DNA from: a bacterium
GTDB lineage: Bacteria > JAJRZV01
Length of the DNA: 51,192 bases
Direction of reading: 5' to 3'
NCBI GenBank assembly: GCA_024275095.1
Contig: JAJRZV010000024.1
Span: 1 to 51,192 of the forward strand
The notes under the pieces were generated by a model, which was given only the letters and a program-made list of their open reading frames with translations, was not told the DNA's origin and made no database searches. A program made the translations under genes and the position numbers. Numbering within the stretch: the first letter of the stretch is position 1; every line of letters begins with the position of its first letter. This document shows, piece after piece, positions 35,730-50,594 of the stretch.

Positions 35730-38700
35730 CTATCTAATCATACTGATGGTGTTATCATTGTAATTGGTCACGTAAACCGTTCTATACGTATCGTCACGAA
35801 CGGTCACATCGAATGGACCACCACCACCGCTGATGAGCCACCTCACCGTGTTGGTCGCGATATCAATCACGCCCACCTCGTCGTTGTTTCCATCGGTCAC
35901 AAGGGCGTACATACCGTCAGGCGTAATGGCCACGTTTTCAAGCCACGCCCAGAATGAAAAACCCGCTATGGTCTCGGTGTTGGTATTCGTGGCAGTATCT
36001 ATCACCTCAACCGTATCGGTGTTCGTACATCCCACGTAGAGGCTCGAGCCGTCGGGGGTAATGGCTATGCCCCTCGGACCGCAGCCCGGTAAGGCCACGT
36101 TTGCAGTGACCGACCCTGTCGTGAGGTCAACAACGTCCACGCTGTTGTTATTGTTACACGTGACGTATGCCGTGCTGCTATCAGTTGCAGCAGCAACGTA
36201 GTACGGTCCACAACCTGCGCTGAGAGCAACGGTGGTATAGGTGAGGGTCTGGGCATCAATGACATAGAGGTTATCATCCGCGTTGCCGGCCACGCACACC
36301 GTCAGGCCATCGGGAGTAACCGCAACCCCCGCGGGAGAAGCGCCGGTAACCGGTATGGACGCCGTCTGGGCGAGATTCAGGGGATCTGAAATATCAATGA
36401 CCCTCACGGTGGAGTCCCCGTCAGAGGTCACGTACGCCGTGAGACCCGAAGGGTGAACCGCCACATCCCACAACGTCACGCTTGCTCCGGGCACAAGCAC
36501 AACGTCGAGAGGCGAAAGGGAGTCAGCATCGTAGGAGAAGAACAGGTTGTTATCCTTCGCGACAAACAGGGTGTCCCCGTAAACGGCTATCCCTTTCGGG
36601 TTACCGCCACCAGGAATGCTTGCGGAGGTGTCAACAACGCTCGGTTCCCCGATAAACGTGCCAGTGAAAGGCTCGGGATTGCTTATCACACCGCATGCCA
36701 CTTCCATGGGATCCTGCGAAAATGGATTGCCGACCACATCCTGAAGACCGGACGTTACAGTCACGTTATAGGTATGACCCCATATAAGTCTGGAGTTCGG
36801 GGTCAGCTGAAGAATGGATTTGTCTCCCAGTGCACTGATTGTAAATGTCACAGATGATGGGACCGTCGCATCTTCCATCTTTATCGTTGAGCCAGCAACG
36901 GCAGTACCCGTGTTGACGGGCTTAGAAAATGTAATAATATAAGACCCGTCCGTGAGCAAATCACCCTCAAGCGGAGGATCTACAGCGTAAACAGTGAGTG
37001 TTGTGTCGGTATAAAGTGAATACTCACCGTTGAGATACCTGAACACGTAAACCCTTCCACCGGGTACAAGACCCTTGACCGCCGTATTGAACGATGCTTC
37101 CACACCGGTGGCACTGTCTTTCTGAACACCAATGGACGCCTCCTGCGCTGAACCATAATCCCCCATGAACGGTGAATTCATGTACTGAAATTTAATATCG
37201 CCACTGCTTTCGTAAAAGTTCACCTGGAAGTCGAAAGTTTCAGATAAAGATGCATTGTCAGTAAAGTTTATCCACTCGATAGTGAATACCCTGTTGGGAG
37301 CAGTACCAGTCACCTTGTAGTAAACCTGTCCGGTAATACCTGCATTGAGGTCATCAAAAAATGGAGCCACCATGTAATCGGGGTTGGAAGGGTCCGGAAT
37401 GGGATTGTTTTCAAAGTCCGCCCGTAACAGCTCCGTAAAAGAGAGCCATCCGTTGGATGTAACATTGATGGTCTGTCCTTCAGGAAAAACCACGCCGAAA
37501 AACTTCACATCCATTGGTAGGGTCAACAACTTACCGGCATCATCGTCATTCACGGCAAACCCAAGAGAGGTCCCACCTGATGATGCATCCTCAGGACAAA
37601 AGGTAAGATCGGCCAGATTGCCACTGAGCAGATAAGTGTAAGCATTCCTGTATATGGCCACTCCATTGGAGTTGCTCACTTTGAGATCCACAGTGCCCGG
37701 TGTTTCGCTGGCGGGAGTAAGAGCCACGATGGTTGTACTGTCAACCACGGTAAAGTCCGTAACCTGTGCTGTTCCAAGGAAAATCGTGGTATCAGGTGTT
37801 GTTGTGAAACCGTAACCCTTAATGGTAATCCATTCGCCGCCCAGGATACTCCCTGAGTCCGGGGTTACCAGTGTGATGGCCACCGTTGAATCGCTAACGA
37901 CAATCTGGTGTGACGTGGTATTTTCAAGAGTGGAACCATCAGAAAGGCGAGCAGTTACTGTGAGGGTCACGGTGTATGTACCCCTGGTGGTATACGTGTG
38001 TGTAACAACCTCACCGGTGGCAGTAACCGAATCACCAAAATCAAACACGTAGGATATGATTGTGCCGCTGCCAGAGGTAGAACAGGAGGCATCAAAAAAC
38101 ACGGCTTCGTTGGTTGAAGCTGTGGTGGGACCGGTAAAACACGCAACGGGTGGATCACTCACCGATGCCAGGGAAGCAATGGATATCAGTCTGCTGACAG
38201 TGTTGGTAGCGCCGTCATCATCTGTAACAGTAAGGGTTACAATATAATCCCCTTCAGTGGTATAGGTGTGTGAAACACCGGATATGGTGCCTTCCACGGG
38301 GGGAGTGCCATCTCCAAAATCATACGAATACTTGACCACGCGCCCATCAGGGTCATACGATGCAGAGGCATCAAATGCTACGGGCTCGCTTGTGACTCCA
38401 GAGGAAGGAGAGCTGAGCGCAGCCACCGGTGGAACATTATCTGCAATGCTTATCTGTTTCGAAATACTTGATGTGGCACCATCATCGTCTGTTACCGTGA
38501 GGGTGATGACGTAGTTTCCTGCCTGCGTGTACGCGTGAGATGCAGCAGCCACCACGCCGGTGACAGGGGACGTTCCGTCTCCAAAATCATACGAATATTT
38601 AACCACGCGCCCATCAGGATCATATGACGCAGATGCATCAAATGACACAGGCTCGCCTATTGCGCCGGACGAAGGAGAGCTGAGCACAGCCACCGGTGGA

Positions 38701-39038
38701 ACGTTATCTGCAATGCTTATCTGTTTCGAAATACTTGATGTGGCACCATCATCGTCTGTTACCGTGAGGGTGACCGTATAAATTCCTGCACTCGAATACG
38801 CATGTACCGCGGAAAACACGTCGCTGGCGCTTGAACCGTCACCGAAATCAAAACTGCAAGCTGCAACAATACCGTCAAGGTCCGTTGAGCCGGAGCAATC
38901 AAACACCAAGGCTTCATTTATGCGACCGCTTGAAGGACCATCCAGAACCGCGATTGGAGGGCGATTTTTCGGACCTCCACATGAACATACGGCCGCAACC
39001 ACAAAAAATACAATCCATTTACTCCTTTCACTCAACAT
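35730..39038 (-). CDS. Surface lipoprotein with PKD, IPT/TIG and YVTN beta-propeller domains
   Basis: A 1102-residue lipoprotein: signal peptide with lipobox VCSC (C20), four PKD domains (about residues 26-390; FDFGDGSSASDVF and SYDFGDGTSPV are typical), an IPT/TIG domain (about 391-470; GGEWITIKGYGF), a beta domain around NVTSNGWLSFTELLRADFEN to FYESSGDIKFQYM (about 475-665), a bacterial-Ig/SbsA-like domain (about 690-785) and a seven-bladed beta-propeller of YVTN type (about 810-1102; GVAVTPDGLTVCVAGNADDN, GIAITPDGSSLYVGCTNTD). Two PKD repeats are 89 residues apart and nearly identical in DNA. GAGGAGG precedes ATG. Probably a surface or adhesion protein, translated after the outer-membrane barrel gene. 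Confidence 0.88.
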   Translation of the reverse strand: MLSERSKWIVFFVVAAVCSCGGPKNRPPIAVLDGPSSGRINEALVFDCSGSTDLDGIVAACSFDFGDGSSASDVFSAVHAYSSAGIYTVTLTVTDDDGATSSISKQISIADNVPPVAVLSSPSSGAIGEPVSFDASASYDPDGRVVKYSYDFGDGTSPVTGVVAAASHAYTQAGNYVITLTVTDDDGATSSISKQISIADNVPPVAALSSPSSGVTSEPVAFDASASYDPDGRVVKYSYDFGDGTPPVEGTISGVSHTYTTEGDYIVTLTVTDDDGATNTVSRLISIASLASVSDPPVACFTGPTTASTNEAVFFDASCSTSGSGTIISYVFDFGDSVTATGEVVTHTYTTRGTYTVTLTVTARLSDGSTLENTTSHQIVVSDSTVAITLVTPDSGSILGGEWITIKGYGFTTTPDTTIFLGTAQVTDFTVVDSTTIVALTPASETPGTVDLKVSNSNGVAIYRNAYTYLLSGNLADLTFCPEDASSGGTSLGFAVNDDDAGKLLTLPMDVKFFGVVFPEGQTINVTSNGWLSFTELLRADFENNPIPDPSNPDYMVAPFFDDLNAGITGQVYYKVTGTAPNRVFTIEWINFTDNASLSETFDFQVNFYESSGDIKFQYMNSPFMGDYGSAQEASIGVQKDSATGVEASFNTAVKGLVPGGRVYVFRYLNGEYSLYTDTTLTVYAVDPPLEGDLLTDGSYIITFSKPVNTGTAVAGSTIKMEDATVPSSVTFTISALGDKSILQLTPNSRLIWGHTYNVTVTSGLQDVVGNPFSQDPMEVACGVISNPEPFTGTFIGEPSVVDTSASIPGGGNPKGIAVYGDTLFVAKDNNLFFSYDADSLSPLDVVLVPGASVTLWDVAVHPSGLTAYVTSDGDSTVRVIDISDPLNLAQTASIPVTGASPAGVAVTPDGLTVCVAGNADDNLYVIDAQTLTYTTVALSAGCGPYYVAAATDSSTAYVTCNNNNSVDVVDLTTGSVTANVALPGCGPRGIAITPDGSSLYVGCTNTDTVEVIDTATNTNTETIAGFSFWAWLENVAITPDGMYALVTDGNNDEVGVIDIATNTVRWLISGGGGPFDVTVRDDTYRTVYVTNYNDNTISMIR
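38404..38772. repeat. Tandem PKD-coding repeat, 267-bp period
   Basis: The stretch 38404-38505 recurs at 38671-38772 with about two differences in 102 bases, and neighbouring bases (38311 on vs 38578 on) also match at the same 267-base offset, equal to 89 codons. Third-position identity shows recent duplication or gene conversion within the PKD array. Confidence 0.85.
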
Positions 39039-41777: not shown

Positions 41778-43010
41778 TTACCCCATTGCGGAAATGACAA
41801 TTTCAGTAATATCCCTCATGATCAGCGAGGAATTTTTAGCAGCAATAGCATCTTTCAGGCTCTGGTAGCAAAACGGACAGGCAGTTACAAATTCTGAAGC
41901 TCCTGTTTTTTCCGCATCCTCAACCAGTCTGCGAGACATGCTCACCTGAATTTCAGTGAATCCCGCCTTGAGCCCTCCACCCGCTCCACAACACCGGGAG
42001 TAAATGCCCGAACGTTCCATCTCGAGAAGTTTAAGGCCGGGGACGCTTTTTAGTATCTCACGGGGCTCGTTGAAAAGCCCGTTGTGTCTCCCGAGGTGAC
42101 ACGGATCATGGTAGGTAACCGCAAGATCAACTTCACGAGAGAGACTCAGTTTTCCCTTTACTATCAGTTGATAAATAAACTCCGTCATATGATACACGCG
42201 GAATGGAAATTGGGAATATTTGGGATAGTCCTGCCTGAGGGTTTTAAAACAGCCCGAACAGGAGGTCACGATGATTTCTGCTTCCAGCGAAAGGAATTTT
42301 TCAACGTTCTTTCTCACCTGTTGCAGGAACACATCCTTCACACCCATACGCAGGGGTGTACTGCCGCAACAGTATTCCTCAGGCCCCAGGATTCCATAGT
42401 CAATACCTACACGGTTCATTATTTCTGCAAAATTGATGGCAACCTCGCGGATGTTCTGGTCATAAGAAGCCGTACACCCAACAAAGTAAAGAATTTCAGC
42501 TTTATTTTTACCGCGGGAGAGGTCCTTTACAGGCGCGGACAGGCGCCTCTCCCTGTAGGCTCTGTCTGCCCACCTGCGTCGTGCAGACCGCGGCTGCATC
42601 CACGGATTGTCATAGTTTTTTATACTTTGAACAAGTGGATGCTGTGCCTCAAGAGGTCCATATCCGGCATTAACAAAAATTTCTCTTATCTCCTCCCATA
42701 GCTCAATAGTGTCAATTCGGGAAGGACACACAAACGAGCACTGACCACAAACCGAACACCTGTAGAGCGCATCACGAAGGAAATAAATGTCCTTCTCCTG
42801 GATACGCCTGCCGAAAATGGAAAGGAACGGGTTTGTACCTGCCCGGATGGCTTTCTTTATAAGGTAGATTTTGTAAAAAGGGGGCACCTCCCGTGCACTG
42901 GTTTCAGCATATACGGGACACATCTCCACACACGTACCACATCGTGCACATGCAGACAGGTCAATCCGTCTCTTGAGGGGCAGATTGTGGAACGCGAGAC
43001 CACCGGCCAT
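41778..43010 (-). CDS. HdrD/DsrK-like Fe-S protein with two CCG domains
   Basis: A 410-residue protein of the heterodisulfide-reductase subunit D family. Two ferredoxin motifs: C21-x2-C24-x2-C27-x3-C31-P and C85-x2-C88-x2-C91-x3-C95-P. Two full CCG motifs (C-x34-CC-x35-C-x2-C): C179, C214-C215, C251, C254 and C304, C340-C341, C378, C381, each able to hold a noncubane [4Fe-4S] cluster or other site. GGGAGG precedes ATG 43010. It overlaps the NarI-like gene by 50 bases, giving a DsrMK/HmeCD-like membrane pair that would reduce or oxidise quinone. The partner order differs from fused EMO. Confidence 0.92.
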   Translation of the reverse strand: MAGGLAFHNLPLKRRIDLSACARCGTCVEMCPVYAETSAREVPPFYKIYLIKKAIRAGTNPFLSIFGRRIQEKDIYFLRDALYRCSVCGQCSFVCPSRIDTIELWEEIREIFVNAGYGPLEAQHPLVQSIKNYDNPWMQPRSARRRWADRAYRERRLSAPVKDLSRGKNKAEILYFVGCTASYDQNIREVAINFAEIMNRVGIDYGILGPEEYCCGSTPLRMGVKDVFLQQVRKNVEKFLSLEAEIIVTSCSGCFKTLRQDYPKYSQFPFRVYHMTEFIYQLIVKGKLSLSREVDLAVTYHDPCHLGRHNGLFNEPREILKSVPGLKLLEMERSGIYSRCCGAGGGLKAGFTEIQVSMSRRLVEDAEKTGASEFVTACPFCYQSLKDAIAAKNSSLIMRDITEIVISAMG

Positions 43011-43704
43011 AAATATCCTCCCTTGACCCTTTCTCCAGAAGAGTCAACAATAGATTTAGAGGAACAGTGAACATGTGAACAAGTTTCGTGAAGGGAATCA
43101 GCACCACCACAGTAACAATCAGCGCAATGTGAAGAAAGAAAACATGGCTGTAATGTACGGCAGTCCAGTTGATAAAAACCCCGGGCACAACATGCGCAAT
43201 GATGCCACCTTTCGTATACGCGTATTTCACACCGGCAAGAAGTATTCCTGTAACGGCTATTGCAAAAATTAGAAATGTGGATGTGAGATCTTCATAAAGT
43301 GCAGGAGATACGTGTCGACCAAAGGTAAAAAAACGACGGGCTAACAGAAGAAGAGAAGACACAACTAAACCTGCAGCCATTATATCGTGGATGAGAATAG
43401 CTGAATCTCCCCCTGTAACGACACCAGCAAAAGAGGGAACAAAGTAATACACTACAAAAAAAACAAAGCACACCGTCATAATAAAATGTGCTGCCCACCT
43501 GAAAAGGCTGTAACGAGCGATATTCCATTGAAGCACGACTTCTCCAACAACAACCTTCACAGTGCTCTTTACAGACGGGCGGTTCACGTGCATACCCGGG
43601 TCTTTCACAGTGACCAGCAAAGTAATGGCGTACACAGCGTACAGGGCCAGTAAGCCTGTACATACCCAGAATATCATTGTTTTTATGTCAGATACCTGCA
43701 GCAT
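42961..43704 (-). CDS. NarI/DsrM/HdrE-like cytochrome b membrane subunit
   Basis: A 247-residue integral membrane protein from ATG 43704 (a longer frame to 43809 would run antisense to nothing but deep into the upstream gene). Five transmembrane helices: about 9-32, 69-90, 101-123, 142-160 and 182-210. Candidate heme ligands are H73, H106, H184, H187 and H192, the last three in VHYSHVFFLH; NarI/DsrM families use helix His for b-type hemes. Such subunits exchange electrons with menaquinone. The 3' end overlaps the HdrD/DsrK-like gene by 50 bases. The start overlaps the BPL_N gene by 17 bases and has no clear ribosome-binding site. Confidence 0.85.
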   Translation of the reverse strand: MLQVSDIKTMIFWVCTGLLALYAVYAITLLVTVKDPGMHVNRPSVKSTVKVVVGEVVLQWNIARYSLFRWAAHFIMTVCFVFFVVYYFVPSFAGVVTGGDSAILIHDIMAAGLVVSSLLLLARRFFTFGRHVSPALYEDLTSTFLIFAIAVTGILLAGVKYAYTKGGIIAHVVPGVFINWTAVHYSHVFFLHIALIVTVVVLIPFTKLVHMFTVPLNLLLTLLEKGSREDIYGRWSRVPQSAPQETD

Positions 43705-44884
43705 TTTCAGAAGACAGGTCTCTTTTTTCGGTTCGCATTGCCCGAAAATGCCAGTTGAACACGTGTGAAGCGCAGGAGTTGAGGCTGGACAACAGTGTTC
43801 CTGCTTCAAGCTCTCCCGACTTCACATGAGAAAGAGACTCTTCCAGTAAGGTCCTTACCTCTTCTACTTCCTCGGGAAGTGCAATAGCATTTCTCTTACG
43901 TCGCACTTTATCCCATATGGCGTTAACAAAGGTGAGGAAATGATAAGCCATCAGGTACTTTGAACCCTTCCATCCTTCGAGTCTGCGCGTTTTGCTTTCC
44001 AGAGCTATTCTCAAATTACTTGCAAGTGCTCTGATCTTGTGTATATCCAAAGCATCCACATGAGAGACTTCTTTTTCTGCTTCTGTACGCTTTCCTTCGC
44101 AAACGAGAAGTTTTCCCAGGATTAGATTGGCTTCTTCATATTCAGGATGCTCAATATGAGGACCAAACGCGTAAATTTTTAAGTCCTTGTGTGCAGCTCT
44201 CACTGCTGCAGCTCGACCTGTATAAATTTCATCCGCAAACTCCCTGTCCACAAGGAATTCCGTTTTGTCTGTAAAACCGCAATAGCGTGCAATCACCTCG
44301 ACTTCCTCGGTCTCTTCCATTACAGGTCCGCCGTAAATGGGTGCTGTAATTATGCCTTTGGATACAAACGGGAAATTCTTCACCACGTGTATCTCAATCT
44401 CTCCCCTCACCGGATGAAATACATACCTGCATCCGTATGGCTGGGCGAACTTCTCCTTCATGCGAACAGGTTCGGGAATGACCTCGCGCAGATTGGCTAT
44501 AGGAGCACGGATAAAATTGAAAAGGTTCAAAGGTTCCTTTGACGAACGAAGAACGAGGTATCCTCCAGCGCATGTACCAATATAAAGTCCTCCTGACCTT
44601 ATAAAACTGCGAAGGGCGGTTGCACCTTCATGTCCCAGGCTTTCTGCTATGGCAAAGGTGTCACCTCCGGATACCACACATGCTCCGGCACCGGAAAGCA
44701 CATCAAACGTCAAAGAAGCCGAAAAAACAACCCTTTTCCACCCGAGAGCCTCAAGTGTCTCACCCACCCAAAGCCACGAGTGAGACGTGCCTTCTCCGGT
44801 ATATACCACAACCCAGGACTCTTCTTCCGGAAAGGTGTGAATAAATCGGCGCAGTGCTGCTCTGGACTTTATTTCAGGGAGCAT
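43688..44884 (-). CDS. BPL_N-type glutamine-amidotransferase-like protein
   Basis: A 398-residue protein. Its first half is a DJ-1/class I amidotransferase-like fold of the BPL_N family (biotin-protein-ligase N-terminal domain): VVSGGDTFAIAESL and YIGTCAGGYLVL, where C105 is the nucleophile-elbow Cys. It continues with FHPVRGEIEIHVVKNFPFV and ITAPIYGGPVM, then a helical C-terminal half (ALDIHKIRALASNLRIALES, KYLMAYHFLTFVNAIWDKVR) I do not recognise. ATG 44884 lies inside the end of the AOR-like gene, with AAGG 8 bases away. Role in a redox operon is unclear: amidase, cofactor processing or regulation. Confidence 0.75.
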   Translation of the reverse strand: MLPEIKSRAALRRFIHTFPEEESWVVVYTGEGTSHSWLWVGETLEALGWKRVVFSASLTFDVLSGAGACVVSGGDTFAIAESLGHEGATALRSFIRSGGLYIGTCAGGYLVLRSSKEPLNLFNFIRAPIANLREVIPEPVRMKEKFAQPYGCRYVFHPVRGEIEIHVVKNFPFVSKGIITAPIYGGPVMEETEEVEVIARYCGFTDKTEFLVDREFADEIYTGRAAAVRAAHKDLKIYAFGPHIEHPEYEEANLILGKLLVCEGKRTEAEKEVSHVDALDIHKIRALASNLRIALESKTRRLEGWKGSKYLMAYHFLTFVNAIWDKVRRKRNAIALPEEVEEVRTLLEESLSHVKSGELEAGTLLSSLNSCASHVFNWHFRAMRTEKRDLSSENAAGI

Positions 44885-46106
44885 CCAGAAACACCTTGGC
44901 TGTACTGTGTACCTGCTCTTCAAATGCCCCATAATCATACTTAATGCTTCCGAACACAGGTGAAAGATTTACGGAGAACACACCTGTAAAAATCGGGCAG
45001 ACCCCCGCAGAAAGAGAAAAAACGTAGCGCTTTACAGCATCCTCCAGACAATCCCCGGGTGGCAGAGTAAGACTTGCTCTGCATTTTTTCACGAAGTTTT
45101 TAAACCATCCAGGAACATCCTGCCATATCTCCTCCACCACGGTGGAAAGTTCCTTTCCGTGATAAAGTGCCTCAAGAGGATGTGTGCCTGTCCGGACGGC
45201 ATTCCACATGGTTTCAATAACATCCGACCCGCCTGTGACCAGTGCAAGAGTCTGAAAAGGATCGCTCAACAAAAAACCCGGTTCATCAATCTCGGATTCC
45301 TTCAGGCGTGATGGTTCATCTTTCACCATGAGAAAACTCTGACACGGATATGGACAGTTAAAGCATGCAGAATACCTGTGCACACGTTCTTTTATTTTTT
45401 CCAGCGGGCCTGTGTCTGCACCTGAAAGCTCCAGGACTCTCCCCATGCCTTTACATTCTTCACTCACCGCTGACCTGCGCAGCTCCACGCATGCACTGAA
45501 AAAATCTTCATCCGCTTCAAAAGACTCCATTCCCCTCAGGGCTACCGCCTGAACATTCAGGTTGTCCAGCATATCACCGGCACCGCAAATGTCACCGCTG
45601 TACCAGTAATCAACCATCAGGGGTTTCAACCCTCCTTCCTTGCCGTAAGAGATAACCTGGATGTTCTCATCCGCATGTTCGCCTCTTACACTGTCAACAA
45701 GAGTCCACACACTCTCGGTATTCAATGCACTGGCAGGAAGGACTTCACATATACCATCGTGTATCCAGAGGTAAACCCTCTCGCTGCTTTTACCTTTGAG
45801 AACCACTGCGTCAAATCCTGAATATTTAAGTTCCGCGCCCGTGTGCCACAACAAATGAGTAACAACCGGTCCTGTTGCCTCATTCAGCCATACCAGCGTT
45901 GAAGCACACGAGGCAGGTACGAATGTCCCTGTGAAAAGACCGGCAGCGAATGCTGCGGTGCCACCGGTGTCTTCCAGAAGGTGAAGAGCAAGCAGGGGAC
46001 CGCCCGGCGCTTTCTCCAGTACTTCACTGCTGAGTTCACGTTCATCTATCTCTCCGTTTTCCAGATTTACAACCACATATCGTTCGTTGAAAAAACGCCC
46101 CTTCAT
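44874..46106 (-). CDS. Short aldehyde:ferredoxin oxidoreductase-like protein
   Basis: A 410-residue member of the AOR (tungstopterin) family, about 200 residues shorter than usual. The N-terminal domain is present (RYVVVNLENGEIDEREL, GGPLLALHLLEDT, LKYSGFDAVVLKGKSSERVY), with ELK-SGFDAVVLKG matching AOR-domain-1 text. Fe-S ligands are conserved: C248, C251, C255 (CFNCPYPC) and a fourth C370 (SAGVC, family DxLGxC). About 100 residues between them are missing compared with Pyrococcus AOR, part of the pterin domain. It might therefore lack the cofactor. Start ATG 46106 follows GGAGG; upstream frames overlap the ferredoxin gene, which ends at 46103. Confidence 0.8.
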   Translation of the reverse strand: MKGRFFNERYVVVNLENGEIDERELSSEVLEKAPGGPLLALHLLEDTGGTAAFAAGLFTGTFVPASCASTLVWLNEATGPVVTHLLWHTGAELKYSGFDAVVLKGKSSERVYLWIHDGICEVLPASALNTESVWTLVDSVRGEHADENIQVISYGKEGGLKPLMVDYWYSGDICGAGDMLDNLNVQAVALRGMESFEADEDFFSACVELRRSAVSEECKGMGRVLELSGADTGPLEKIKERVHRYSACFNCPYPCQSFLMVKDEPSRLKESEIDEPGFLLSDPFQTLALVTGGSDVIETMWNAVRTGTHPLEALYHGKELSTVVEEIWQDVPGWFKNFVKKCRASLTLPPGDCLEDAVKRYVFSLSAGVCPIFTGVFSVNLSPVFGSIKYDYGAFEEQVHSTAKVFLDAP

Positions 46107-46453
46107 GAAGCACCTCCTTCCTCTACCAGGCATCCCGAAGGACAAACAGCAACGCAAAAAAGAAAATCCTCACCTTCACACAGGTCGCACGCCTCCCTCA
46201 TAACAATCGGCTTTGATGAAGCACCGGCACCCTCCGCCTTTTCTCCGGGCAAAAGCACCTCTGCGCCTTCAGGTCTGCCGAGAAACACTTCTTTTTCTCG
46301 CTTGATCATCACTCCAAAATAGTCCTTCTTCTCATTGCGGTGGAGCATTATGCTTGAAGACACAGGGTTCATCTCGCGATCGCGGTGAAAAGAACAGGCA
46401 ATTTCACAGATACGGCATCCTGTACATTTGTGTGTAATCACCTCCAGCTTCAC
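46103..46453 (-). CDS. 4Fe-4S ferredoxin-like electron carrier
   Basis: A 116-residue protein with GTG start at 46453, 6 bases after GGGAGG and overlapping the upstream stop by 4 bases. Two Fe-S motifs: CTGCRICEIAC near the N-terminus (C-x2-C-x2-C-x3-C) and CDLCEGEDFLFCVAVCP near the C-terminus (C-x2-C-x6-C-x3-C-P). Between them a linker has REKEVFLGRPEGAEVLLPGE. AOR-type enzymes commonly have such a neighbour (BamC or the Aor small subunit). It would shuttle electrons between the AOR-like protein and the HdrD-like protein. Confidence 0.88.
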   Translation of the reverse strand: MKLEVITHKCTGCRICEIACSFHRDREMNPVSSSIMLHRNEKKDYFGVMIKREKEVFLGRPEGAEVLLPGEKAEGAGASSKPIVMREACDLCEGEDFLFCVAVCPSGCLVEEGGAS

Positions 46454-47679
46454 GACACACCTCCCACCGAGTCCCACAGGAGCTTCACCAGGTCAACTAC
46501 AGGGAGCTCGAGGCCTTCTCTCTTTACACCGTCACTGATATTCTGCTCACAAAACGGGCACGCAGTCACAATCATTTCAGCGCCTGTGGACGCTGCTTCT
46601 TTTGCTCTCAATCCTGCCGTGGCCACAGCCACCTCGGTAAAGGCCGTGCGTACACCCCCACCGGCCCCACAGCACAGTGAATACTCACGGTTCCGTGGCA
46701 TCTCCACCAACTCCACTCCAGGAATGTTTTGCAAAATCTGCCGTGGTGCATCAAAAACGCCGAAATAGCGCCCGAGATGGCACGGGTCATGATAGGTCAC
46801 TTTGGACGGAATTTCTTTTTTATGTTCCAGACCTTTATCCTGTGCAACCTCGTCCATGAACTCTACGATGTGCCTCACCTCCGCCCGGAGGTGTTCCTGG
46901 TAGAAATGTTTGAACGTTGAATAACAGCCGGCACAGGCAGTAACCACATATCGAGCACCTGTATTGTTCAGCTGTTCCGCCACTTCGTCACGTCTTTTAA
47001 CGAAGGACTTCATGTCACCAACCCTCATCACCGTGGAACCACAACATCTCTCCTTTTCTCCAAGAATTCCAAAATTTACTCCTGCACCGTGAAGAAGGCG
47101 TGCCGTAGAAAACACAACGTCTCTGAAAGCAGGATCATAAGACCCTGTGCACCCTACAAAATAAAGCACTTCCACCTTTTCCTTGCTTGCATCTTTTATT
47201 TCCACATCTTTCAATCGTTTTGCCCAGCGCCCCCTCTGGGACCTGGGGCTCATCCAGGGATTATCGTAGTTCTCAATGCTTTTAATAAGCGGCCGATGCT
47301 CTGGCAGAGGAGCCAGACCTTTTTCCACCAGATAAACCCTGAGCGCCATAAAAGCATTGGTGGGCTCCAGTCCCTTCATCTCGCTGCATATAACCTGACA
47401 ATTGCCGCATGCCGTACAGGTATAAAGAATCTCGAGGAATTTCTCGTCAATTACCAGTTCAGGAGGGTCACACGTGATCGCCCTGATAAGTTCCATTCGG
47501 CCGGTGCTGAAGTAAGCATCAAAACGAAAATACGTTGCAGCAGGACAATTATCTGCGAAACGGTAGTTTGTAAGAATTTCCGGACGTGTCATACCACACA
47601 GTTTGCACTTTACGCATTTCCAGGCAGTATTGCGATATTCAAATAAATGTCCAAACTTCCCAATCTGTGCATACTGCAT
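46450..47679 (-). CDS. HdrD-like Fe-S protein with two CCG domains (BamD-like)
   Basis: A 409-residue paralogue of the HdrD protein at 41778-43010. The first N-terminal cluster site is altered: C22, C25, C28, then the fourth Cys 17 residues on (C45-P; FADNCPAATYF), a form I recall from BamD-like proteins. The second ferredoxin motif is normal: C88, C91, C94, C98. CCG motifs: C177, C212-C213, C249, C252 and C300, C336-C337, C374, C377. GGAGG lies 5 bases before ATG 47679. It is followed by ferredoxin and AOR-like genes, an arrangement like bamD-bamC-bamB of class II benzoyl-CoA reductases. No bamE/HdrA is present here. Confidence 0.92.
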   Translation of the reverse strand: MQYAQIGKFGHLFEYRNTAWKCVKCKLCGMTRPEILTNYRFADNCPAATYFRFDAYFSTGRMELIRAITCDPPELVIDEKFLEILYTCTACGNCQVICSEMKGLEPTNAFMALRVYLVEKGLAPLPEHRPLIKSIENYDNPWMSPRSQRGRWAKRLKDVEIKDASKEKVEVLYFVGCTGSYDPAFRDVVFSTARLLHGAGVNFGILGEKERCCGSTVMRVGDMKSFVKRRDEVAEQLNNTGARYVVTACAGCYSTFKHFYQEHLRAEVRHIVEFMDEVAQDKGLEHKKEIPSKVTYHDPCHLGRYFGVFDAPRQILQNIPGVELVEMPRNREYSLCCGAGGGVRTAFTEVAVATAGLRAKEAASTGAEMIVTACPFCEQNISDGVKREGLELPVVDLVKLLWDSVGGVS

Positions 47680-47754
47680 CACCACCTCCTGTCTAAAATT
47701 TATCTTTCAACAGGCATCCAGGAGTAGAAATGTCAAATGTTGAGACCAGACCCC

Positions 47755-49329
47755 TCATTGCTCGTCCAGAGGATTAACACCGGGGTGTGAGATATACAGC
47801 TCATCCACCACGGCTTTGAACCTTTTTGCCAGTTCCCAGTAAACCTGTGCTCTCGGCATCTCGATTTCTCCAAAGCCGTACATGCGGCGATACATCGTGG
47901 CCTTAAACTTTTCCACAAACATTTCAGTGGTTTTTTTCAACATGACCGCTGCCCTCTTAATATCCTCAGGATTGCCCTGGTCCCACCAGTAATCAAACTC
48001 CAGCGGTGCCAGGCGTGCAAACGGATACGGACCCTGTACAGCCGTGCCTGTGAGCGCCATCTTCTCGGAAAAGTCAGGGGCTGAATCCTTCCAGTACCGG
48101 TGGATAAGCCTGCGGTAATATTCATGCACTAACGGAATCAAATCCATTTTCACATTGCCAGCAGTCCAGTTGAAAGACCCTCTCCACTTCATGGCTGCAC
48201 CCACGCGTGGACCCACAAGTTTCCAGTAGCGCGGATCAAACAAAGGTTCATCAGTGAACAGAAGCGCCTGCTGGTCCACGGCGTACATCCCTGTGGATTC
48301 TGCTATGTTCATGAGAATCTCTTCCTTTATCGCAAGTTCCTCTTCATCGTGGCCTGAGATAATCACAATGACCGGGTCGGAAGGAAGGTAATCTGCAAGG
48401 TCCAGGGGATTATCCACAGGTGCCGCCACAGCCATCTGTCCATGGTGTGATTTATATATGAATTCTGCAATCTCTTCCCTTGATAATCTCAAATCGAACT
48501 CCAGTGCACTTTCAAGAGCCCTTTCGCGGTCATCTGCGTCAAAAATGTAAAGCTTTTCCACCGGATATTCCGGCACAATCCGGATGGTCATCTCCGTGCA
48601 CACACCCATCCCCCCATCTGCCGCCACGAATATGCCCATGATATCCACCAAAGGATGCCAGTTGAGAGGTAACCTCTCTGCTCCTTCTGCATGCACACCG
48701 AGTCTGAGGACCTGGCCATCAGGCAGCACCCAGGTCATTCCCGCGATCAGCTCGCTGGAGAGACCGTATCGGATGGCGATACCAGGCCCCCCGCGTGCCA
48801 CATAATTGGCGAGAGTGGAAATGCTCCCCATGGTTAAAGGCAGGCACGCACGGAGTTTCACGCCGTCATGTGCCAGATGCTCGTTAACAGCGAGGTACAC
48901 CTCAGCATTGCGCGCCCCGGGACCAATGGTGCACGTCATACGTTCTGCATCCACCTCAATTTTGTTCATGCGTTTGAGGTCAAGAAGAATGCCGCCCCAT
49001 CTGGGAAGGGTCAATCCTCCGTGATTGAAACCGGTCGAATAAGGAATAAATGGAATATTGCGTCTGTGGGCGATTTTCACTATCTCCACCACCTCTTCGG
49101 TAGAGGCCGGCATGACGACAATGTTGGGAGCTTTCCCCGGCGTTGGGGTGAAATCACGACTGTAAGTAATGGTTACCGCACGGTGGTCAGTAGCCCATCT
49201 CTCCCCAACCACGTCCCTGATTTCTTTGAGGGCCTCGCGCAAATTCTCTTTGGAAAGATCCCACCTCACCGGGGGCTGTTCCCGGAGTTTTTTCTCTATC
49301 TCTTTCAAGGCTTCACCTCCCTTTTTCAT
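47755..49329 (-). CDS. FAD-linked oxidase (VAO/PCMH/GlcD-like)
   Basis: A 524-residue flavoprotein of the vanillyl-alcohol-oxidase/PCMH superfamily. FAD site: NIVVMPASTEEVVEIVKIAH, PFIPYSTGFNHGG, GGILLDLKRMNKI, AERMTCTIGPGARNAEVYLA, and a PP-domain-like region through GLSSELIAGMTWVLPDG. The STG-N-GG and ILLDLKRMNKI segments read like p-cresol methylhydroxylase. The C-terminal half is the substrate domain; no covalent-FAD His/Tyr is obvious. ATG overlaps the preceding flavoprotein gene stop by 4 bases. Feeds electrons to the Fe-S neighbours (inference); substrate unknown, possibly an alcohol, lactate or phenolic. Confidence 0.87.
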   Translation of the reverse strand: MKKGGEALKEIEKKLREQPPVRWDLSKENLREALKEIRDVVGERWATDHRAVTITYSRDFTPTPGKAPNIVVMPASTEEVVEIVKIAHRRNIPFIPYSTGFNHGGLTLPRWGGILLDLKRMNKIEVDAERMTCTIGPGARNAEVYLAVNEHLAHDGVKLRACLPLTMGSISTLANYVARGGPGIAIRYGLSSELIAGMTWVLPDGQVLRLGVHAEGAERLPLNWHPLVDIMGIFVAADGGMGVCTEMTIRIVPEYPVEKLYIFDADDRERALESALEFDLRLSREEIAEFIYKSHHGQMAVAAPVDNPLDLADYLPSDPVIVIISGHDEEELAIKEEILMNIAESTGMYAVDQQALLFTDEPLFDPRYWKLVGPRVGAAMKWRGSFNWTAGNVKMDLIPLVHEYYRRLIHRYWKDSAPDFSEKMALTGTAVQGPYPFARLAPLEFDYWWDQGNPEDIKRAAVMLKKTTEMFVEKFKATMYRRMYGFGEIEMPRAQVYWELAKRFKAVVDELYISHPGVNPLDEQ

Positions 49330-50594
49330 ACGCTATAGCAGGGATTCAGGATCCCCGCCGGATCGGTAATCCTTTTTACCTGATTTAAAAACTTTCTTTC
49401 TGTTGACGAATAAAATCGTGATGCATCCAGGGGCGGGACGCCTGGAAAAGCCCACTCCAGCTTTGTACATATATTGCGTATACGCGAGCTCCACAGGCCT
49501 TCACACCACACAACAAGCACAAAAGCACCACCTCTCGAAAAAGAAGAAACCACATACCGGGGCGTTTTACCCATCTCATCTTCCACGGCTCCGGCAGCTG
49601 ATACCACCTTATTCCGGAAATCCGGATACGAACCGTAAATCACGGCCGTGCTTCCTGATGAAAAAATACTGCGTCGTGTCCACATTTCATCCTCAATGGT
49701 GACCACACGCTCCGCTCCCCACTTGAGCATCATCTTCTCAACGCGCCTGATGTTATAATTCACCAATTTCTCCCGCCCGGCATATCCAAGTACAACAAAT
49801 GTCAACCCTTTATCGAGACCGGCTCCCGTCAGCTCTTCAAGTGATTTCGCATCTCCCGTAAAGCATTCCACTGTCAACTCATGCCTCGGAACATTGCGTA
49901 AAACTTCACCGGCAACTTTTAAATCCCGCACCTTCCATACCTCGCCCTTTCTCACCTCCCACCGCGGGTAAAGATACACGGAGGACCTCACCATCACCCC
50001 CATGATGTCCGGTGCTCCGAAATACCAGCGGGAAAGGTTTGGGCCAGGGTCATCACGACAATCACCCGCTTCTTCAGAGAGAGCATGCTGGCCCGTGCGA
50101 TGTATCAATCCTTCTGGAAGGGCCACATACATGTTGGAAATATTAAGGTCACCGTACCTGGCGCACTCCCGCACAGGATGGCGCATGGCATAACACTCGC
50201 TGATACTTGCTGTCGGTGTCACAAGAGGCATGAATACATCAACGCCTTCTGCACGAGCTGCTTCCACCACCTCCTTGAAATGAACTCCACGACCAACATG
50301 GGCGATGAGATTTCGTGCATCCAACCGATCTATTGCTGCCAGTCTCGAGAACTCAAATATCACGCTGCCGGAGTAATCCAGCACAGGATCAAAATACCGT
50401 TCATATGTTGTAAAAACCTTTACACTGCTGTAATTGCATATTTTCAGTACTGCAGCAGCTTCTTCATATGAACCCGGTCTTACAGCACACACCGGTAAAG
50501 AGGCGGGTTGTTCAGGGAAGTATTCATCCACATCTTCTACCACTCCATCTTTACCCAGTTCTCTCTCCAGCAATTCTTTTATTTTTTCACCCAC
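49326..50594 (-). CDS. FAD-binding-oxidase-like protein with atypical FAD loop
   Basis: A 422-residue protein with the FAD_binding_4/GlcD framework: AVRPGSYEEAAAVLKICN, EFSRLAAID, IAHVGRGVHFKEVVEAARAE and ending DPAGILNPCYSV (GlcD C-terminal DP-GILNP). The usual glycine-rich PP loop (P-x-G-G-G-T) is replaced by TTYERYFDPVLDYSGS, and no GG-S/T is visible. It may bind FAD weakly or serve as a structural partner for the full-length flavoprotein encoded next. GTG 50594 follows GGAGG by 6 bases. GlcE-like role in a GlcDEF-type arrangement is one possibility (inference). Confidence 0.78.
   Translation of the reverse strand: MGEKIKELLERELGKDGVVEDVDEYFPEQPASLPVCAVRPGSYEEAAAVLKICNYSSVKVFTTYERYFDPVLDYSGSVIFEFSRLAAIDRLDARNLIAHVGRGVHFKEVVEAARAEGVDVFMPLVTPTASISECYAMRHPVRECARYGDLNISNMYVALPEGLIHRTGQHALSEEAGDCRDDPGPNLSRWYFGAPDIMGVMVRSSVYLYPRWEVRKGEVWKVRDLKVAGEVLRNVPRHELTVECFTGDAKSLEELTGAGLDKGLTFVVLGYAGREKLVNYNIRRVEKMMLKWGAERVVTIEDEMWTRRSIFSSGSTAVIYGSYPDFRNKVVSAAGAVEDEMGKTPRYVVSSFSRGGAFVLVVWCEGLWSSRIRNICTKLEWAFPGVPPLDASRFYSSTERKFLNQVKRITDPAGILNPCYSV

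Follow-up and report, generated by a model that had tools for sequence, protein, structure and literature searches.

The window analyzed here is the whole 51,192-nt contig JAJRZV010000024.1 (GenBank assembly GCA_024275095.1), and on its minus strand lies a gene for an AOR-family protein that is far shorter than its relatives while carrying all four cysteines of their iron-sulfur (Fe-S) cluster. This raises the question of whether such a protein is a decaying copy, a compact tungsten enzyme, or a subunit kept for another purpose. The gene (44874..46106) encodes a short AOR-fold protein, named sAOR here, as assigned by reading frame, Pfam, alignment, tree, and profile–profile comparison. The coordinates and the length of 410 aa from ATG to stop given in a first-pass annotation proved correct. 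The start codon lies inside a 4-base ATGA overlap with an upstream ferredoxin gene, and a clear Shine–Dalgarno sequence precedes it. As judged from sequence comparison, sAOR belongs to a branch of the aldehyde:ferredoxin oxidoreductase (AOR) superfamily that is conserved and has no pterin site. The window corresponds to one entire contig of genome G000 (2.45 Mb, 136 contigs, 97% complete), the sole sampled member of its phylum.

Alignment with Pyrococcus furiosus AOR placed Cys248, Cys251, Cys255, and Cys370 of sAOR (minus-strand codons 45363..45365, 45354..45356, 45342..45344, and 44997..44999, respectively) opposite C288, C291, C295, and C494, confirming the assignment of these residues to the AOR cluster ligands. 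The spacing in the window protein is C-x2-C-x3-C followed by 115 residues to C370, whereas the corresponding last gap in P. furiosus AOR is 199 residues in a chain of 605 aa, which makes sAOR ∼195 residues shorter. The shortened gap is real and not a chance feature of one sequence, as the distance between the third and the fourth ligand is 108–160 residues (median 134) in 35 complete short members, the window included, and 196–244 (median 209) in 40 full-length AORs, with no overlap. These two sets were used for all residue and tree counts. Pfam AFOR_N was matched by residues 9–192 of sAOR (E-value 4.5e-21, 75.9 bits, above the cut-off of 29.8), and AFOR_C by 34 residues only (E-value 0.094, 12.3 bits, below the cut-off of 27). 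Likewise, AFOR_N was found in 35/35 complete members and AFOR_C in 5/35 at E ≤ 0.001 (best E-value 1.2e-4). The sequence matches of sAOR in the PDB were AOR-family enzymes and fell in domain 1; the match to BamB consisted of domain 1 and a 24-residue stretch around the Cys motif, and no more. Profile–profile comparison of the sAOR family with 20 full-length AORs gave a probability of 100 (E-value 3.3e-62) over AOR residues 2–529 (numbering of the 599-aa L007). Since the short family still aligns to residues 2–529, the loss comprises an internal and a C-terminal stretch, the internal one in the window protein falling mainly at L007 positions 356–467. On this alignment, sAOR is a complete AOR domain 1 followed by a collapsed remnant of domains 2/3.

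The short form is shared by 39 distinct genes in three phylum-level groups (34, 4, and the window gene), of which 35 are complete. A three-row model detected short relatives in 4/4 genomes of the phylum of G041 and in 34/395 genomes sampled from the phylum to which G387 belongs; G387 carries L023, a locus of a Lake Pavin metagenome-assembled genome. With the same model, 4/386 genomes of a domain-wide sample matched, namely, the genome of the window and three of the G041 phylum. A 35-row model matched 12/386 genomes of this sample at E ≤ 1e-50 and did not widen the range of the short family. The matches in eight of those 12 genomes lay within longer open frames (543–737 aa among the matches listed), covered domain 1 with or without the Cys motif and nothing further, and were not counted as short. 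Scanning of genome contigs returned L023 along with L024, a single full-length AOR from an archaeon, and no relatives were found in viral contigs. Before filtering, the alignment held 40 short rows; L031, L085, L122, and L124, which are cut by contig ends, and the duplicate L025 were dropped to give the 35. Surroundings were taken for 32 of the 34 matching genomes in the sample of G387's phylum, G387 itself being represented by L023. G520, a near copy of G491, was kept outside the neighborhood counts and inside the tree and residue counts.

Phylogenetic analysis of domain 1 placed the 35 short members on one side of a branch and the 40 full-length AORs on the other (SH-aLRT 99). Chain lengths are 419–535 aa in the former and 595–726 aa in the latter, the window frame being entered in this comparison as 427 aa, from an upstream TTG. 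At 20 positions, the 35 short members all have the same residue, the window copy included. Among these, D172 and G277 are found in 0/40 full-length AORs, and H243 in 1/40. Asp172 (codon 45591..45593, minus strand, by alignment 35/35 in the short members) lies beside the former pterin-phosphate loop, in the R182/A183 region. The new invariant residues, together with a two-cluster ferredoxin encoded directly upstream in 38/38 loci, indicate selection. The view of sAOR as a degenerate paralogue is not supported, as the family is monophyletic and conserved, with invariant residues of its own and a fixed ferredoxin partner. That the window gene is a decaying pseudogene or an assembly artefact is extremely improbable: its end branch in the domain 1 tree is long (1.43) and several family-typical residues have changed, but the frame is intact, the gene is translationally coupled, 20/20 invariant residues are kept, and the ferredoxin–sAOR order holds in all 38 loci.

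The cofactor contacts were taken from a cryo-electron microscopy study of A. aromaticum AOR, according to which the Mg is contacted by the backbone of Asn92 and Ala182, the W cofactor is further contacted by Arg75, Gly94, Arg181, Asp361, Asp504, Ile508, Cys509, and Val510, and Glu331 and His464 lie near the metal (PMC10413684). The P. furiosus equivalents, paired here by alignment offset, are R76, N93, G95, R182, A183, D343, D489, C494, E313, and H448. When the pterin-contact residues were checked, as had been proposed at first pass, the equivalents of R76, N93, R182, and D489 were each found in 0/35 short members, and so was that of E313 near the active site. The N93 position is occupied by Pro in 34/35, the H448 segment is deleted in 35/35, and the other sites are kept by some members (G95 in 7/35, A183 in 1/35, and C494 in 13/35). 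The 40 full-length AORs keep R76 in 38, N93 in 30, G95 in 39, R182 in 31, D489 in 34, H448 in 38, and E313 in 30 cases. It is thus indicated by the alignment that the tungstopterin contacts are gone from the short family. With the AFOR_C match below the cut-off and the pterin contacts missing, classification of sAOR as a tungsten oxidoreductase is not warranted. A residual role of the cofactor, in which sAOR would still bind a single pterin, or a reduced form of the tungsten cofactor, and be catalytic with a compact domain 2/3, is very unlikely. The window protein does keep Gly368 along with its four cluster cysteines, and the equivalent of D343 (the probable counterpart of Asp361 in the pairing made here) is Asp in 21/35 short members, though His in the window copy. 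This is outweighed by the uniform loss of R76, N93, R182, E313, and D489 and of the H448 segment, and by the incomplete set of cluster ligands in 24/35.

The fate of the cluster itself differs within the family. All four cysteines are present in 11/35 short members, the window among them, as compared with 38/40 full-length AORs; the cryo-electron microscopy study of A. aromaticum AOR states that they occur in 99% of family members (PMC10413684). One or more ligands are missing in the other 24 short members, common patterns at the four positions being Cys/Thr/Thr/His and Ala or Gly/Cys/Tyr or Ala/Asp. By parsimony, the four-Cys state has changed at least three times on the tree, which argues that the protein has been kept for more than its cluster. 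The proposal of a retained Fe-S function in a protein without its pterin-binding part therefore stands for the pterin site, which is gone, and for the four ligands of the present copy, but cluster retention is not general. With the pterin site lost and the four ligands still present in the window copy, sAOR is most economically read as a scaffold for an Fe-S cluster or for electron transfer.

The constant partner of sAOR is a two-cluster ferredoxin (46103..46477, minus strand), the gene of which adjoins sAOR upstream through the ATGA overlap. The ferredoxin gene is immediately upstream in 38/38 loci, so that the AorAB-type arrangement, in which the gene of a ferredoxin-like subunit adjoins that of the large one, is found in every locus. 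Of the eight cysteines, the first four are conserved in 36/36 rows covering them and the last four in 38/38. An insert conserved as SSSIM...EKK.YFG.M.KR separates the two Cys motifs (window 46103–46477; L004:1113–1460), and it could possibly be the element by which the ferredoxin docks to sAOR.

Transcription of the window genes, all on the minus strand, runs from a cytochrome b/b6-type protein truncated at the contig border (50616..51191) through two FAD_binding_4 proteins of 422 aa (49326..50594) and 524 aa (47755..49329) and a CCG (HdrD/GlcF-like) Fe-S protein of 411 aa (46450..47685) to the ferredoxin and sAOR. These are followed by a BPL_N (glutamine-amidotransferase-like) protein (43688..44938; 416 aa from the first ATG, overlapping sAOR, with a later start possible), a NarI/DsrM-like membrane cytochrome b (42961..43809), and a second CCG (HdrD/TmcB/DsrK-like) Fe-S protein of 410 aa (41778..43010). 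The cytochromes, flavoproteins, and CCG proteins were assigned by family scan. The 524-aa protein belongs to the VAO/PCMH/GlcD superfamily, with likeness to VAO/PCMH and GlcD-type enzymes over the flavin adenine dinucleotide (FAD) domain. BPL_N lies directly downstream of sAOR in 19 loci, and a nucleophile-elbow-like motif, G-x-C-A-G-[GA], was observed in 20/20 BPL_N sequences.

Within 12 kb of sAOR, CCG proteins were found in 31/38 loci, FAD proteins in 20/38, BPL_N in 20/38, and NarI in 9/38. These counts are lower bounds because many loci end at contig borders; the NarI count is so also because its profile was seeded with one sequence, and the FAD count misses GlcD–HdrD fusions of the G041 type, which were scored as CCG only. 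At least two same-strand FAD genes lie upstream in 8/38 loci (the window, L094, L097, L099, L107, L111, L123, and L124). The set seen in the window recurs on one strand of L107 in the order FAD-CCG-FAD-ferredoxin-sAOR-NarI-Fer4-CCG-BPL_N, as part of a candidate catabolic operon (L107:1635–19562) that also has SDR, thiolase, AMP-ligase-like, SCP2, AIRS, and OYE-type reductase genes; a substrate of the lipid or aromatic type is possible. The surroundings of other loci include an aldehyde dehydrogenase, cytochromes c, and an NMT1/ABC transporter (L102), a molybdopterin oxidoreductase with NrfD (L100), and a b6/petD pair with a CCG–cytochrome c fusion protein (L103). Three genomes of the G041 phylum have a GlcD–HdrD fusion on the opposite strand. 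As the neighbors vary, the shared part is the ferredoxin with sAOR, set amid FAD/CCG dehydrogenases and a variable quinone/cytochrome module.

It is reasonably probable, from sequence and gene order, that the pterin-less AOR-fold subunit docks the ferredoxin between the FAD/CCG dehydrogenase subunits and the NarI/HdrD-like membrane module. sAOR would work without tungsten catalysis, as a structural subunit that clamps or positions the ferredoxin in the way AorB binds AorA. Electrons would leave the FAD subunits for the CCG protein, pass to the ferredoxin, and reach the quinone or cytochrome pool through the NarI-like cytochrome b/CCG module; in the window copy, the retained [4Fe-4S] cluster of sAOR would probably serve as one more relay. 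As 24 family members lack the full ligand set, the clusters of the ferredoxin must suffice there. By analogy, sAOR may have followed the course of NuoG (Nqo3), a molybdopterin-enzyme homologue kept as a subunit while its cluster became dispensable, although NuoG is of the formate dehydrogenase-type superfamily, unrelated to AOR.

Several observations weigh against this role. FAD, CCG, NarI, and BPL_N are each missing from some sAOR loci, and two of the 38 (L063 and L106) have none of CCG, FAD, and BPL_N in the stretch read. The persistence of Asp at the D343 position means that one pterin contact is often still present, and the end branch of the window copy is long. AlphaFold2 models from two-row alignments reached a pLDDT (predicted local distance difference test) of 33.4 for the window protein and 35.0 for its L023 relative. 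Lastly, FAD/CCG sets exist without sAOR, which therefore is not their general subunit: L167 (G387:C10:1–14000) carries FAD, FAD, CCG, FAD, FAD, FAD, CCG, and FAD segments with neither ferredoxin nor sAOR in the 14 kb read. The array of L167 may comprise relatives of the flavoprotein trimer of benzene degraders. Nor do L094-type FAD genes always accompany sAOR: G756 has three of them (55–58% identity) and no sAOR match; no ferredoxin or CCG gene was found near these three. One L094-type gene of this genome (L145, G756:C161:21212–22753) is interrupted by an in-frame TAG that its two paralogues in the same genome lack.

The occurrence of FAD/CCG sets without sAOR also speaks against a different role, which is possible but unlikely, namely, that the vacated cavity was rebuilt to take up some other small molecule, such as a CoA ester, an aromatic substrate, or a flavin, and that sAOR serves the FAD/CCG enzyme as a subunit for catalysis or for presenting the substrate. 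The former pterin-phosphate sites do carry new residues, with Pro at the N93 position (34/35) and Asp at the G185 position (35/35); Trp stands just before the R182/A183 loop in 33/35, and the E311 position is Gly in 35/35. The genes for CoA-thioester catabolism at L107 (thiolase, AMP-ligase-like, SCP2, and OYE-type reductase) would fit such a subunit as well. However, no ligand-binding motif was recognized among these residues, and they could equally form a protein–protein interface.

In the genome of the window (G000), a single full-length AOR gene was found (contig C88; L001:1465–3471). Its otherwise continuous frame is interrupted by an in-frame TAG (L001:2530–2532), which may be a nonsense mutation, an assembly error, or recoding. 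A frame that is MoeA-like by eye lies just upstream of it. Elsewhere in the window, the minus strand at 35730–39038 encodes a lipoprotein-like protein of 1102 aa, which contains internal repeats that are nearly identical and look PKD-like by eye, and a β-propeller-like C-terminal part.

No description of a short or pterin-less AOR family was found in the open-access literature. The WorL set of 4,064 sequences, as described in the available text, required both AFOR_N and AFOR_C (PMC13328260), and a branch that lacks the cofactor site and, in most members, the cluster is not covered by the published surveys in the portions available (PMC10413684, PMC13328260). For annotation, an AOR assignment from domain 1 alone need not mean the use of tungsten. 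The neighborhoods also provide a subunit list for an uncharacterized FAD/HdrD-linked respiratory system.

The known systems close to sAOR include AOR/WOR (P. furiosus AOR, 1AOR; A. aromaticum AorB), with which it shares domain 1 by sequence, the four cysteines of the window copy, and a ferredoxin-like partner as in AorAB. It differs in being shorter by ∼195 residues and in lacking the tungstopterin contacts and the His448 segment. The locus had also been called Bam-like, and an AOR-fold protein, a ferredoxin, and HdrD-like proteins do stand side by side as around BamBC of class II benzoyl-CoA reductase. That sAOR is the BamB-like catalytic subunit of such a cassette is nevertheless hardly credible. 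It lacks the pterin contacts of a complete W site, and its PDB match to BamB is limited to the two segments given above. The ferredoxin partner has eight conserved Cys for two clusters, in contrast to three clusters in BamC according to the text available (PMC12096430). The partners at the membrane and those with FAD also differ in kind, and no HdrA-type or NuoEFG-type subunit and none of the BamE–I type was seen among the operon proteins scanned up to the contig end, the rest of the genome not having been searched for them.

The pairing of a NarI-like cytochrome b with a CCG HdrD-like protein is similar to that in DsrMK, TmcBC, and HmcF of sulfate reducers, although the window proteins score far below the cut-offs of these families, and the window has sAOR and BPL_N as extra components. 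The pair of FAD_binding_4 proteins with a CCG protein (window 46450–50594) is comparable in gene content, rather than by sequence comparison, to GlcDEF and to the abundant FAD/Fe-S/FAD "Magic" trimer, a candidate for anaerobic benzene activation in two 2026 papers. More distant syntenic homologues of the trimer are reported in strains not using benzene (PMC13101534, PMC13416013). The order in the window is FAD-FAD-CCG, unlike FAD-CCG-FAD, and no AOR-like protein is named for the "Magic" clusters in the available parts of these papers (PMC13101534, PMC13416013). Several sAOR loci carry a trimer of this kind, but FAD/CCG sets without sAOR exist as well, and a link of the sAOR loci to hydrocarbon activation is a lead only. 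A wider scenario, tentative and quite unlikely as a whole, is that one AOR branch gave up tungsten and, repeatedly, its Fe-S cluster, rebuilt the cavity into a new binding site, and with the ferredoxin came to gate the electrons, as a subunit, in FAD/Fe-S dehydrogenases for the anaerobic attack on recalcitrant compounds. These enzymes would belong to one world with the flavoprotein trimers proposed for anaerobic benzene activation.

The nearest analogy is with NuoG/Nqo3 (NDUFS1) of complex I, a molybdopterin-enzyme homologue whose cluster N7 is off the pathway and is regarded as a remnant in the passages available (PMC9474812, PMC7171172). Both would be homologues of metallopterin enzymes kept as subunits, the likeness being one of analogy only, with the role of sAOR read from its gene neighborhood. 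If this role is true, sAOR would be the AOR counterpart of NuoG and a separate instance in which a metallopterin enzyme became a structural subunit.

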